Made by a program: the position numbers and the translations under genes | Source of the DNA: a virus | Strand: one strand, 5' to 3' | DNA length: 34,398 nt | Virus record (IMG/VR): IMGVR_UViG_3300044640_001957 | Coordinates: 1 to 34,398 of that record | In this document: piece by piece, positions 16,795 through 22,621 of the stretch | How the letters are laid out: each line of letters starts with the position of its first letter | Position numbering within the stretch: the stretch's first letter is position 1 | Notes under the pieces: model-generated | Databases searched by the model: none | What the model saw: only the letters and a program-made list of their open reading frames with translations | Told to the model about the DNA's origin: nothing

Positions 16795-18771
16795 ATGACA
16801 TTTTTTTACGACTTAAACAAAAAGCTGAGTGACTTGGCTGCAAAACAAACTTTGAATGAGGGCGCAAGCCATCAAGCAAAAACAACAATGAAGCATGTTG
16901 ATGCTAGTGATGCATCACCGCGAGTAAAGGCTGAGTTGAAAAAAGCCTCTGGTGACATCAAGCCTGGCACAGCCGGCTACGATGATCGTGCTAGAATGTT
17001 GAAAGCTGCCGGCGTCAAGGACACTCGTGGTCCTGCCACAAACGAAGGCGCCAAGCCAGATTTTCTTGACGTTGATAAAGATGGCAACAAAAAAGAAACA
17101 TTCAAGAAAGCAGTGGCAGACAAAGAAGTTGCCGAAGGCATTCTTGACACTGTGAAGAAAGTTGGCAGTGCAGTCAAAAAAGGTGCTGGCAAAGCACTGG
17201 ACACATTGGGACACGGCAGTGATGAAGACATGATTCGTGACTTACAAAAGAAAGTTGGCATGCCACAAACTGGTAAAAAGCCAATGGCCCACATGAAAGA
17301 AGCACACGGCGGTATCAAACAAATCATTGGATCCATGTCCGGCGATGTTGCTAAATTCAAACAAGATGGTGATCTAAGTGATGCACTGTATAATGCACTA
17401 TTTGATTACTACAGCGACAGTGGCGAAATGCCTTATGGTACAGCAAAAGCTCGAGATGGTGATCCATATGAATGGATTAGCAATCGCCTTGAACAAGAAC
17501 TAAACGTAAGCGAAAATGTTGACAAAGAAGCTTTTGCCGCATTGGCACCCCCTACAGACAAGATCACTTTCGCTGACAAGATTGCCGGCGCCAAGAAAGA
17601 AGTTGACGAAATGCTGGGCGATGTAGCAGCAGAAGCCATGAAGCAGGCTCTGGGCCGCGGCAAAAAAGTTGTTGCTGACGAAGCAGAAGACAACAGTCCA
17701 TTCACTGCACACAAGCGTCCCCGTGTAGAACGACCCAAAGTTGGTAGCACTGAGCGTGGAGCATTACATGATATTGAACACACAGCAACTGGCCGCAAAG
17801 TAACACGCAGAGTTGACCCTAATACTGGACACAGTGTGGGCTCAGATGATGATGCTCCAGCTTCGGGCGAAAAGCGTGGACGTGGTCGTCCAGCTGGCAA
17901 AGGCGCTGGCAAAAGCATCGGAGCCAAGGGCCCAAGTGGTAAGTCAAAATTAATGACCAAAGAAAGCGACAACGAAAGCGATGAAATCAAACAGGCCATG
18001 TCCATGTTGAAGAAAGCTGGATACGAGATTACCAAAGCCGACAAAGACGAAGAGCAAGTTAACGAAAAAGCAGTAAGCAAAAAACAACAAAAGTTCATGG
18101 GCATGGTTCATGCCGCACAAAAAGGTGAAAAGCCTGCTTCTAAAGAAGTTGCCAAGGTAGCCAAAAGCATGGGCAAGAAAGATGCTGAAGACTTTGCTAG
18201 CACCAAGCACAAAGGTCTGCCTGAAAAGAAAAAAACTGAAAAGAAAAAAGAAGTTGAAGAAACAACAGTAGCTGGATCTGTTGCTACTGCACCTGCCAAA
18301 GCCGCTAAAGGTGGTGTCTTTGGCAAAGGCGTTTACGAAAGTGCGATAGCTGAAAGCTTTGACAAAAAGTTAGACACAGTATTAACCGAAGGCATGAGTA
18401 TTAATCTCAGCGTGGGCGAAGATGGTACAAAGTCTTTGAGCGTTAACGCCACCAATGAAGATGCTGAACAACTAGCGCAACTGTTAAAAATGGCTGGCTT
18501 AGGTGGTGAAGAAAGCGGTCAGCATGCTTGTTCCACTTGCGGTGAAAGTGCATGCGGCTGCCAACAAGTTGACGAAGAACTTGCCAACTCACCAAACCCC
18601 AACTACAGCAACACAGACACCATGGTAAACACATTGAGTGGCGGGCTTAACGGTCGTAAGACAACTGGGCAAACAACTATTCCAGTTATTGCACATCAAG
18701 ATCGCCAAACAAGCGTAGCTGAAAGCTCAGAGTCTCGGTTGTGGGAATTGTACCAACGTTACAGCAAGTAA
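16795..18771 (+). CDS. Large basic internal/prohead protein with AT-hook, DUF3008-like segment and Cys cluster
   Basis: A 658-aa Lys/Ala/Asp/Glu-rich, low-complexity protein. From the N-terminus: a short helix ending TLNE|G (20-23), a possible prohead-protease site; 'FLDVDKDGNKKETFKK' near 90; a central helical region; an AT-hook-like core GRGRPAGKG near 360-370; a DUF3008-like segment 'KQQKFMGMVHAAQKGEKPAS' with 'VAKSMGKKDAEDFASTKHKGLPEK' (about 427-478); further [L/I]xE sites; and a Cys cluster HACSTCGESACGC near 578-590. The AT-hook and charge suggest it binds packaged DNA, as T4 internal or core proteins do. AAGGA precedes the start. Role in DNA condensation or scaffold is inferred. Confidence 0.7.
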   Translation: MTFFYDLNKKLSDLAAKQTLNEGASHQAKTTMKHVDASDASPRVKAELKKASGDIKPGTAGYDDRARMLKAAGVKDTRGPATNEGAKPDFLDVDKDGNKKETFKKAVADKEVAEGILDTVKKVGSAVKKGAGKALDTLGHGSDEDMIRDLQKKVGMPQTGKKPMAHMKEAHGGIKQIIGSMSGDVAKFKQDGDLSDALYNALFDYYSDSGEMPYGTAKARDGDPYEWISNRLEQELNVSENVDKEAFAALAPPTDKITFADKIAGAKKEVDEMLGDVAAEAMKQALGRGKKVVADEAEDNSPFTAHKRPRVERPKVGSTERGALHDIEHTATGRKVTRRVDPNTGHSVGSDDDAPASGEKRGRGRPAGKGAGKSIGAKGPSGKSKLMTKESDNESDEIKQAMSMLKKAGYEITKADKDEEQVNEKAVSKKQQKFMGMVHAAQKGEKPASKEVAKVAKSMGKKDAEDFASTKHKGLPEKKKTEKKKEVEETTVAGSVATAPAKAAKGGVFGKGVYESAIAESFDKKLDTVLTEGMSINLSVGEDGTKSLSVNATNEDAEQLAQLLKMAGLGGEESGQHACSTCGESACGCQQVDEELANSPNPNYSNTDTMVNTLSGGLNGRKTTGQTTIPVIAHQDRQTSVAESSESRLWELYQRYSK

Positions 18772-20454: not shown

Positions 20455-20889
20455 ATGAAAAAACTACTACTACTCTTACTCATCGTACCTGTGCTGGCCA
20501 TGGCACAAAAAACACCAAAAGGTGCAACCTATGACGCACAAATTGTGCGCATCAACGATGGGGACACAGTTGTGATCTCTGCACCATTCTTGCCTGCACC
20601 CCTCAAGCCCGAACTGGCTGTACGAATCTTTGGTGTAGACACTCCTGAAAAAGGACATCGTGCTCAGTGCCCGCAAGAAAATGCCCGCGGTCTAGCAGCC
20701 ACTGAATTTACCAAAAATGCAATTGCTGCCAGTCAGCAACGACAGGTCACACTGTATGCCTGGGACAAGTTTGGCGGTCGTGTGCTGGGTGACATCATTC
20801 TAGATGGCCGTAGCCTGCGTCAGGGACTTATTGCCAACGGTTTTGCACGCGAATACTACGGCGAAGCCAAGCAAAGTTGGTGCAACTAA
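20455..20889 (+). CDS. Exported thermonuclease-like nuclease (SNase family)
   Basis: A 144-aa staphylococcal-nuclease homologue. A clear signal peptide opens it: MKK, then a Leu-rich core (residues 4-10) and AMA|Q at 16-18 as a likely signal-peptidase site. SNase active-site residues are all present: D37 in NDGDTV, R57 in VRIFGVDTPE with D62 and E65, and R109 in GGRVLG. Two Cys (C72, C143) could form a disulphide outside the cytoplasm. Calcium-dependent cleavage of DNA and RNA in the periplasm or medium is expected. It ends a run of virion genes, 1 nt after the previous stop, with no strong ribosome site. Confidence 0.88.
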   Translation: MKKLLLLLLIVPVLAMAQKTPKGATYDAQIVRINDGDTVVISAPFLPAPLKPELAVRIFGVDTPEKGHRAQCPQENARGLAATEFTKNAIAASQQRQVTLYAWDKFGGRVLGDIILDGRSLRQGLIANGFAREYYGEAKQSWCN

Positions 20890-20901
20890 ACATTAAACGA
20901 A

Positions 20902-20996
20902 CACCCTTAGGACCGCACTAGTTGCGAGGGCGCCCGGGTGCTGGGCGTAGCAAGCGATTCGCTACCGTGAACTACAAAGTGACCACTAATAACTTT
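20902..20996 (+). ncRNA. Hairpin-rich noncoding stretch, possible structured RNA
   Basis: The 166 nt between the nuclease and large terminase genes hold no convincing gene. They contain four consecutive inverted repeats: CGCA/TGCG (20914-20917, 20923-20926), CGCCC/GGGCG (20931-20935, 20942-20946), GTAGC/GCTAC (20947-20951, 20961-20965) and AAAGT/ACTTT (20976-20980, 20992-20996). The block is clearly more GC-rich than its flanks. I find no tRNA T-arm, CCA end or U-tract terminator. The strand is assumed from the flanking genes. Confidence 0.35.
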
Positions 20997-21019: not shown

Positions 21020-21055
21020 CTGCATGATCAAAAAATCCCCAAAAGGTAACAACTC

Positions 21056-22621
21056 ATGAGCAAGGTGTTAGAGTCCGTTCTAACAAAGTCGCCATATCAA
21101 CTGGTGTCTTACTCAGACGAGCAACTGGACGAGTTTGCCAAGTGTGCTGACCCCATTACCGGTCCGTTGTATTTCATGGACCATTTTTTCTATATTCAGC
21201 ACCCTACTCGTGGACGAATGGTATATCATCCTTTTGAGTATCAACGGCGCTTGATTGAGGTATATCACAACTATCGTTACAGTATTAGTTTGATGCCTCG
21301 ACAGACTGGTAAATCTACTTCAGCTGCGGGTTACTTGTTATGGTATGCAATGTTTGTGCCCGACTCGACTATTTTAGTGGCTGCACACAAGTACACCGGT
21401 GCCCAGGAAATTATGCAACGTGTTCGGTATGCATATGAAAGCGTGCCAAACCATATTCGAGCAGGTGTTACCAGTTACAACAAAGGTAGTTTAGAGTTTG
21501 ATAACGGTAGTCGTATTGTAAGTGCTACCACTACTGAAAACACTGGTCGTGGTATGTCTATATCCTTATTGTATGCTGACGAGTTCGCGTTTGTGCGACC
21601 AACTATTGCTACAGAATTTTGGACTTCTATCAGCCCCACACTGGCCACTGGTGGTAAGGCAATTATCACAAGCACTCCCAACAGCGACGAAGATCAATTT
21701 GCCTTGTTGTGGAAAGGCGCCAACAAGTGCGAAGATGAGTACGGCAATCCAACTAGACTAGGTGTCAATGGTTTCAAAGCATATCGTAGTTTTTGGAATG
21801 AACACCCGGACCGTGACGAGAGCTGGGCCGCACAACAACGTGCTGCTCTTGGTGTGGATCGATTTCGCCGAGAGATGGATTGCGAATTCATTATTGCCGA
21901 TGAAACACTGATTGCACCTGCTAAATTAATTGAACTTGAAGGAGTTGAACCCTTGTACAAAACTGGGGAAGTGCGTTGGTATCGAAAACCCGAAGCAGGT
22001 AAAATTTATGCTATTGGACTTGATCCAAGTCTGGGCACAGGCGGTGATCCGGCAGCCATCCAAGTGTTTGAAGCAAACACCACAGTACAAGTAGCTGAGT
22101 GGCGCCACAACAAAACAGATATACCCACACAAATTCGTATCCTGGCATCAATTATATCGCACATCAACGATGTTGTTAAATCTCCAAAAAGCATTTATTA
22201 CACAGTAGAAAACAATACAATTGGCGAAGCTGCCTTGATCTCGATTGCAGAATACGGAGAAGACAACATCCAAGGATATTTTCTTAGTGAAGCGGGCGCA
22301 GGAGGATCGCGCAAGTATCGCAAGGGATTTAATACATCAAACAAACCTAAACTAGCTGCTTGTGCAAAAGTCAAACATCTAATAGAAACTGGTAGAATGG
22401 CAATTTCCAGTAGAAGTTTAATTACAGAGTTCAAGAATTTTGTTGCCTCGGGTGCAGGTTATGCAGCCAAGCAAGGAGAAACTGACGATCTTGTGATGGC
22501 CACATTGCTAGTGGTTCGTATGTTACAGTTATTGCAAAATTATCACGTGGAACTTGACACACAAATGCGAGATCATCAAGACACCTTTATTGAACCTTTA
22601 CCGTTTGTAATGACTTTATAA
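21056..22621 (+). CDS. 17: Terminase large subunit, DNA packaging motor (gp17-like)
   Basis: A 521-aa packaging ATPase-nuclease; T4 gp17 is 610 aa. The ATPase half shows Walker A PRQTGKST (81-88), Walker B LLYADE (171-176) and a coupling-type 'ITSTPNS' (204-210). The nuclease half has an RNase-H-like acidic set: D323 in AIGLDPSLG, D331, E385 in YTVENNTIG, and D477/D478 in GETDDLVMA. It should bind the portal, drive DNA into the head by ATP hydrolysis and cut at headful. The AAAAGG ribosome site and late promoter support the start. The stop is immediately followed by the late promoter of the next gene. A headful packager is expected from this family. Confidence 0.93.
   Translation: MSKVLESVLTKSPYQLVSYSDEQLDEFAKCADPITGPLYFMDHFFYIQHPTRGRMVYHPFEYQRRLIEVYHNYRYSISLMPRQTGKSTSAAGYLLWYAMFVPDSTILVAAHKYTGAQEIMQRVRYAYESVPNHIRAGVTSYNKGSLEFDNGSRIVSATTTENTGRGMSISLLYADEFAFVRPTIATEFWTSISPTLATGGKAIITSTPNSDEDQFALLWKGANKCEDEYGNPTRLGVNGFKAYRSFWNEHPDRDESWAAQQRAALGVDRFRREMDCEFIIADETLIAPAKLIELEGVEPLYKTGEVRWYRKPEAGKIYAIGLDPSLGTGGDPAAIQVFEANTTVQVAEWRHNKTDIPTQIRILASIISHINDVVKSPKSIYYTVENNTIGEAALISIAEYGEDNIQGYFLSEAGAGGSRKYRKGFNTSNKPKLAACAKVKHLIETGRMAISSRSLITEFKNFVASGAGYAAKQGETDDLVMATLLVVRMLQLLQNYHVELDTQMRDHQDTFIEPLPFVMTL

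Follow-up and report, generated by a model that had tools for sequence, protein, structure and literature searches.

A structured RNA family of phages carries two invariant loops complementary to adjacent segments of 23S rRNA

Introduction

Small RNAs derived from the 3′ untranslated regions of bacterial mRNAs include CpxQ and RaiZ. To our knowledge, pairing with the functional core of ribosomal RNA has not been described for any natural phage RNA; we found no description of phage RNAs against 23S rRNA in the open-access literature, and a 2026 review of jumbo phages does not mention a noncoding RNA against rRNA. There are nevertheless precedents for the vulnerability of the region considered here and for the strategy of targeting it, since an antisense PNA against helix 69 inhibits the growth of E. 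coli (Kulik et al., as cited in PMC7038079) and a protein of the jumbo phage phiKZ binds the host 50S subunit (PMC10914614). In this work, we analyzed a noncoding element of an uncultivated virus, and we describe its structure, its relatives, and a pair of loops that match adjacent stretches of 23S rRNA.

Results

An RNA element between an SNase-like gene and the terminase gene

The window, i.e., the whole stretch of 34,398 nucleotides analyzed here (IMG/VR virus record IMGVR_UViG_3300044640_001957), was originally predicted to hold a GC-rich run of four hairpins at 20902-20996. The inverted repeats are present where they had been placed, between a nuclease gene (SNase-like) and a T4-type terminase gene, and their bounds were corrected to 20901-20984 on the plus strand, where covariance model R1, described below, gave 102.5 bits (E 4.5e-25), the sole R1 match within the window. 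The features of the locus are as follows.

20455-20889: SNase-like gene, upstream (Pfam SNase, E 1.1e-9)
20887..20889, + strand: stop codon of the SNase-like gene, 11 nt ahead of the element
20901..20984, + strand: whole structured RNA element, the family core (from covariance model R1 and the 95-nt block in L010)
20904..20930, + strand: P1, CCC (20904-20906) with GGG (20928-20930); stems covary
20905..20914, + strand: loop 1, CCUUAGGACC, nearly invariant; in the P1 loop or beside P1a
20915..20925, + strand: P1a, optional hairpin GCA-CUAGU-UGC, missing from short forms
20932..20946, + strand: P2, GCCC/GGGC, with loop GGGUGCU (20936-20942)
20937..20984, + strand: pseudoknot, P2 loop GGUGCU (20937-20942) with tail AGUGACC (20978-20984), one G bulged
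within 20947..20975, + strand: P3 lower stem, GUAG (20947-20950)/CUAC (20972-20975)
within 20947..20975, + strand: P3 upper stem, GCG (20954-20956)/CGU (20966-20968)
20957..20965, + strand: loop 3, AUUCGCUAC, nearly invariant; the P3 loop
21013..21019, + strand: GTAAATA, a T4 late-promoter-like box of the downstream gene (resemblance only, read from the sequence)
21056-22621: T4-type terminase gene, downstream

Thus, instead of four independent hairpins, the element consists of P1 (often with the side hairpin P1a), P2, and P3, together with a pseudoknot that joins the P2 loop to the 3′ tail. The last of the predicted hairpins (around 20976-20996) is not conserved, and in relatives the tail pairs with the P2 loop as the pseudoknot; the GC content was raised only modestly, to 55%. 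The absence of a tRNA pattern and of a terminator U-tract was borne out, as neither ARAGORN nor Rfam recognized a tRNA and no U-tract lies directly behind the element in the window copy, which therefore lacks the GC hairpin with a direct U-tract of an intrinsic terminator. In 10 of 119 copies, a run of five T's lies no more than 20 nt from the tail. The terminase start is 84 nt from the element in the window with no intervening terminator, so that a separate transcript is no more than putative there, and late-promoter-like boxes occur within 80 nt behind 27 of 119 copies.

Two other observations were made around the locus. An 11-codon ORF (MIKKSPKGNNS, window 21024-21059), possibly a leader peptide, has the GTAAATA box just ahead of it, and its stop overlaps the terminase start as ATGA. 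The window protein encoded at 16795-18771 has EVAEG at residue 111, and in L094 and others, proteins upstream of the RNA are large with many repeated (Q)GVAEG motifs, which in sequence resemble cleavage sites of the T4 gp21-type prohead protease (x-V-A-E|G).

The element belongs to a previously undescribed RNA family

Among 80 terminase relatives taken from IMG/VR, one (L010) contained a 95-nt block that starts just before the element and is 99% identical to the window, with diverged noncoding flanks. An exact scan with the GC-rich core of the element also retrieved L082 and L084, where the core lies between entirely different genes, and scans with two other core pieces yielded 67 and 47 stretches. 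Alignment A1, the basis for covariance model R1, contains 29 distinct copies, and alignment A2 contains 100 copies, most of them outside the set behind R1.

Searches of all 4227 families of Rfam 15 at the gathering threshold gave no match for the window copy, a short-form copy, or the copy of phage Paride, and at E values up to 10 whatever matched did so by chance and outside the element core. With the window element and two other forms as queries, BLAST against phage and plasmid records likewise returned chance matches alone; BLAST is too weak for this family, and the covariance model was needed for the Paride copy. These results indicated that the element is one member of a previously undescribed structured RNA family, and the family appears to be new.

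Conserved secondary structure of the plus-strand RNA

When folded as a single sequence, the element did no better than shuffled sequence on either strand (z of -0.19 and +0.66); the structure was judged real from the comparison among relatives and not from folding energy. In A1, 95.4% of the cells were canonical and 13 of 20 pairs showed changes on both sides, versus 25-40% for slid controls. In A2, canonical cells made up 94.0% against 29-45% for slid controls, with compensatory changes in 15 of 20 pairs; since A2 was fitted to R1, the exact percentages lean to the model, although the contrast with the controls far exceeds this bias. A2 contained 448 cells with both-side changes, compared with 147 (SD 13) in shuffles, and RNAalifold recovered P2 and P3 from this alignment unaided. 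Covariation, the check that the original prediction had named, thus supports its proposal of a structured RNA well.

All parts of the scaffold contribute to this signal. P1 covaries as a stem with a changing register: its variants among 119 nonredundant copies include ACAC/GTGT, ACTC/GAGT, ATTT/AAAT, and CATCCT/AGGATG, and its best-stem score in this set was 12.26, compared with a maximum of 10.58 in 200 shuffles. All three P1a pairs were changed on both sides in A2. P2 was paired in 99.7% of the cells, with both-side changes in three of four pairs (e.g., CG in 52 and GC in 47), and such changes were found in 7/7 pairs of P3.

The pseudoknot occurs as GGCUGCU/AGUGAGC in 94 copies and as GGGUGCU/AGUGACC, the form in the window, in 12; rarer compensated forms are GGCCACU/AGUGUGGC, GACUGCU/AGUGAGU, and GGCUACU/AGUAGCC. 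Some copies have swapped the entire pseudoknot sequence with pairing retained, and scans with the loops only uncovered further pseudoknots (UUCCCC/GGGGAA, AUCCCC/GGGGAU, GCUCCCGA/UCGGGAGC, and GCCGACU/AGUCGGU). For copies with alternative scaffolds, the loop-tail stem score was 15.2 versus a maximum of 14.0 in 300 shuffles, in a small set where some best stems differ from the pseudoknot itself. In L324 and L327, loop 3 sits atop an 11-bp hairpin (the P3 stem) and a pseudoknot is not recognizable.

With the fixed G.U pair left out of the count, G.U pairs numbered 56 and A.C pairs 15, which identifies the plus strand as the RNA. Together with the constant orientation, this asymmetry ruled out a minus strand acting as a 23S mimic. 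These data showed that the element has a conserved secondary structure with a defined strand.

Two invariant loops are antisense to adjacent 23S rRNA segments

The loops CCUUAGGACC and AUUCGCUAC are unpaired and hardly change while the scaffold varies, and both are constant across replaced scaffolds, that of the distant Paride copy included. Among copies fetched by loop 1 alone, loop 3 was ATTCGCTAC in 65 of 67, the others being one variant and one unrelated match. Conversely, loop 1 was intact or had a single G.U-compatible change in 43 of the 46 copies fetched by loop 3 alone (CTTAGGACC in 41 and CTTGGGACC in 2); of the remaining three, L164 has another G.U-compatible variant and two are unrelated matches. 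In about 5% of A2, loop 1 is CCCUAGGACC, a weaker match to 23S rRNA.

Loop 1 is antisense to GGUCCUAAGG of 23S rRNA (E. coli 1921-1930), and UUCGCUAC of loop 3 is antisense to GUAGCGAA (E. coli 1930-1937), so that the two loops together cover 17 contiguous 23S bases and share G1930. For random sequences of 10 and 8 bases, the chance of matching abutting rRNA positions, whichever the order or strand, is about 1.6e-6; when only 8 and 7 bases within 20 nt were required, 0.3% of loop shuffles qualified. The best site of loop 1 in E. coli rRNA is this 23S target, at -17.7 kcal/mol compared with -13.7 kcal/mol elsewhere. At the sequence level, then, the conserved single-stranded parts have the exact rRNA complementarity that is looked for in an antisense RNA. 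The order of the loops is opposite to that of a continuous antisense strand; with this reversal and the shared G1930, simultaneous pairing would need two separate kissing helices. The target is universal, and hence covariation between the loops and the target cannot appear. The 1921-1937 stretch borders helix 69 and ranks with the best-conserved parts of all rRNA.

Ligand pockets and active sites, too, typically have invariant loops, and the element could be a riboswitch, a ribozyme, or another structured RNA unrelated to rRNA, its 23S complementarity being accidental. We regard this as very unlikely given the probability of the two-loop match, the absence of any Rfam similarity even at an E value of 10, and, unlike what a riboswitch would have, the lack of a fixed upstream or downstream gene.

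If the complementarity is functional, the loops might instead serve as a guide that steers a phage enzyme to modify 23S rRNA near 1921-1937, or as a splint that holds cleaved rRNA ends together for repair by a phage RNA ligase against a host ribosomal nuclease. The binding of abutting segments is what a bipartite guide or splint would show, and the target lies close to positions of domain IV that are known to be modified or cut by toxins. However, the order of the guide halves is opposite to that in H/ACA guides, the consensus has no ACA box, and no partner enzyme is linked to the RNA across its varied gene neighborhoods. Taken jointly, the guide and splint versions seem to us quite unlikely.

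Two further candidates were rejected. A match of the P2 loop to the 530-loop of 16S rRNA (CGGCUGCUG) was not considered functional because the pseudoknot accounts for the P2-loop variants and the match is lost in other copies, that of the window included. A translational readthrough or bypass element was rejected because the conserved loop contains a stop codon (UAG in CUUAGG) and the reading frames differ between copies.

A separate observation concerns an uncultured Pseudohongiella assembly (L323:394-493), in which the 23S antisense stretch GGAATTTCGCTACCTTAGGACCGTT departs abruptly from rRNA at an I-CeuI-like site; a 23S gene may carry an insertion or be misassembled there.

Copies follow stop codons of many different genes

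A same-strand ORF (50 aa or longer) terminates between -25 and +14 of the UAGGACC motif in 95 of the 113 nonredundant copies with a usable upstream ORF, and in 16 copies the upstream gene uses the UAG of CUUAGG as its own stop codon. The genes involved are diverse: 116 nonredundant copies have 44 upstream gene families, with only a handful of copies adjoining a terminase gene, and the downstream proteins form 42 clusters (clustering was by single linkage, which may merge low-complexity proteins). L004 and L009, both close relatives, have the same nuclease-terminase order as the window and lack the element there. Presence and absence thus differ between L004, L009, L010, and the window, i.e., the position of the element changes fast and its sequence does not. 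A mobile element was rejected, since there is one copy per genome, not the many copies of a MITE or REP-like repeat, and the comparison of L004/L009 with the window revealed no recognizable ends or target duplication.

The original prediction included a pac-like or recombination site, in favor of which stands the position of the window copy ahead of the terminase gene. Most copies, however, are far from any terminase gene instead of at a fixed position at or in one, the same gene order exists without the element in L004 and L009, and the conserved pairing is in one orientation with RNA-type G.U pairs, so that a packaging, recombination, or other DNA site is extremely unlikely.

The constant placement behind stop codons, often before the next gene's own promoter, raises the alternative of a 3′-UTR module acting in cis, whose pseudoknot fold guards the upstream mRNA against exonucleases at its 3′ end, marks a processing site, or aids termination and whose loops bind a protein instead of rRNA. 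Pseudoknots are able to block exonucleases, and a perfect terminator lies right behind the Paride copy. These phages, with their hundreds of genes, have only one copy each, the protected gene would differ in nearly every phage, and this explanation leaves two loops antisense to adjacent 23S bases unaccounted for. We therefore consider it rather unlikely. The mRNA-processing element named in the original prediction is a possible alternative that accounts neither for the complementarity of the two loops to 23S rRNA nor for the single copy in each genome. The tight spacing to the stop codon would also suit a tether in cis that captures the 50S subunit upon its release at termination and retains ribosomes on the phage mRNA, the more so as the target face is exposed only once the subunits split; a single copy per genome and the lack of a favored gene make us strongly doubt it.

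Varied neighbors and the absence from L004 and L009 argue against a fixed cis-regulatory role and for a role in trans, as does the combination of 44 upstream and 42 downstream families with a single copy in each genome, even where records reach 352 kb.

The family is found in viruses, including cultured Pseudomonas phages

A three-motif pattern retrieved at least 120 viral stretches from IMG/VR and none from 84,980 prokaryote species genomes. A looser two-loop pattern gave three matches in the prokaryote genomes, none with the structure (best, 15.5 bits). The family thus looks virus-only in the collections searched. Exactly one copy was present in 25 of 26 matching IMG/VR records of up to 352 kb, most of which had been selected for holding a copy; a second match in the remaining record, G001 (25.8-30.5 bits), has neither loop motif and is in all probability spurious. 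Among 17 larger records picked by terminase alone, the RNA was present in the two that exceed 300 kb, the only ones of that size, and absent from the 15 shorter ones (54-210 kb).

A diverged copy (34.5-36.2 bits) was detected in the cultured phages Paride, PA5oct, and MIJ3 and in eight more Wroclawvirus-type records. In this form, both loops are intact, and the RNA stands directly behind a stop codon and is followed by a perfect intrinsic terminator. Its stems differ from those of the main family yet pair (P3, GUG/CAC; pseudoknot, GCUG/CAGC). The Paride copy is located behind Paride_0501 (OR805295.1, 273881-273971). The Paride terminator, TAGGAGAC-TTAAAAC-GTCTCCTA-TTTTTA, lies immediately behind the RNA (RNA and terminator together, L312:2382-2515; OR805295.1, about 273881-274014) and would set the 3′ end of the RNA. 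No match was found in the jumbo phages RaK2, GAP32, CBB, BF, Phosso, Atu_ph07, and SCTP-2. Separately, a phage contig (L155:3973-4687) carries, a few kilobases from its RNA copy, a tRNA gene and a tmRNA gene; the latter matches the permuted as well as the betaproteobacterial tmRNA model.

Discussion

We infer from the sequence data that the RNA is transcribed, acts in trans, and pairs with 23S rRNA; an effect on subunit joining or assembly is a guess. As a whole, a trans-acting, structured phage RNA that pairs with 23S rRNA and hinders 50S joining or maturation is a proposal that we judge evenly poised between right and wrong. The RNA would be transcribed as the 3′ untranslated end of whichever gene precedes it, and a stable piece of about 85 nt, shielded by the pseudoknot, would probably be left over. 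The pseudoknot of P2 and the tail would be the scaffold that presents hairpins P1 and P3, whose loops CCUUAGGACC and AUUCGCUAC may pair with neighboring 23S segments next to helix 69, at the subunit interface. As the 23S site is covered in the 70S ribosome, the RNA would meet free or immature 50S, and its targets are likely free 50S subunits or 50S precursors. The likely effect would be to keep 50S from joining 30S or from maturing and so to give the phage control of host ribosomes.

If a natural RNA is indeed directed against rRNA, it would be a new kind of phage factor, representing a new viral way to seize translation and a counterpart in nature to ribosome-directed antisense antibiotics, and it would be a probe of when the 50S subunit interface is exposed in living cells. 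The proposal can be tested directly, since a copy is present in cultured phages that infect Pseudomonas aeruginosa PAO1, Paride among them; Paride has been reported to replicate on deep-dormant cells (PMC10761892). Even without a link to the ribosome, a new RNA family that is widespread, pseudoknotted, and virus-only and that combines invariant loops with exchangeable scaffolds is notable.

The antisense sequence to this 23S stretch occurs as an oligonucleotide in studies of other bacteria and mitochondria. In the open-access literature, the loop sequences were not found outside rRNA work, and a description that we did not see is possible.

Among known systems, the element resembles the bacterial 3′-UTR-derived small RNAs in being structured and sited at an mRNA 3′ end, with a terminator behind the Paride copy. 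It differs from them in that its putative target is rRNA and not mRNA and in that it has two rigid loops instead of a linear seed. H/ACA and C/D guide RNAs likewise carry bipartite rRNA complementarity on hairpins, whereas the antisense parts of the element are reversed, box motifs are missing, and it is found in bacteriophages. The phiKZ014 protein, which sits on the 5S rRNA of the 50S subunit (PMC10914614), is also a phage product aimed at the host 50S; in contrast, the element is an RNA, and its putative site is in domain IV at the subunit interface. The antisense PNA against helix 69 shares sequence-specific pairing in the same 23S neighborhood, predicted in the case of the element, but the PNA is man-made and linear, and the element is natural and folded, with two loops for adjacent segments. 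Whether such virus-only RNAs, occurring once per genome in giant T4-like phages such as Paride, bind the 50S subunit through their two loops, at a nearly universal site of 17 bases in 23S rRNA, as natural antisense is a matter on which we stand half convinced.
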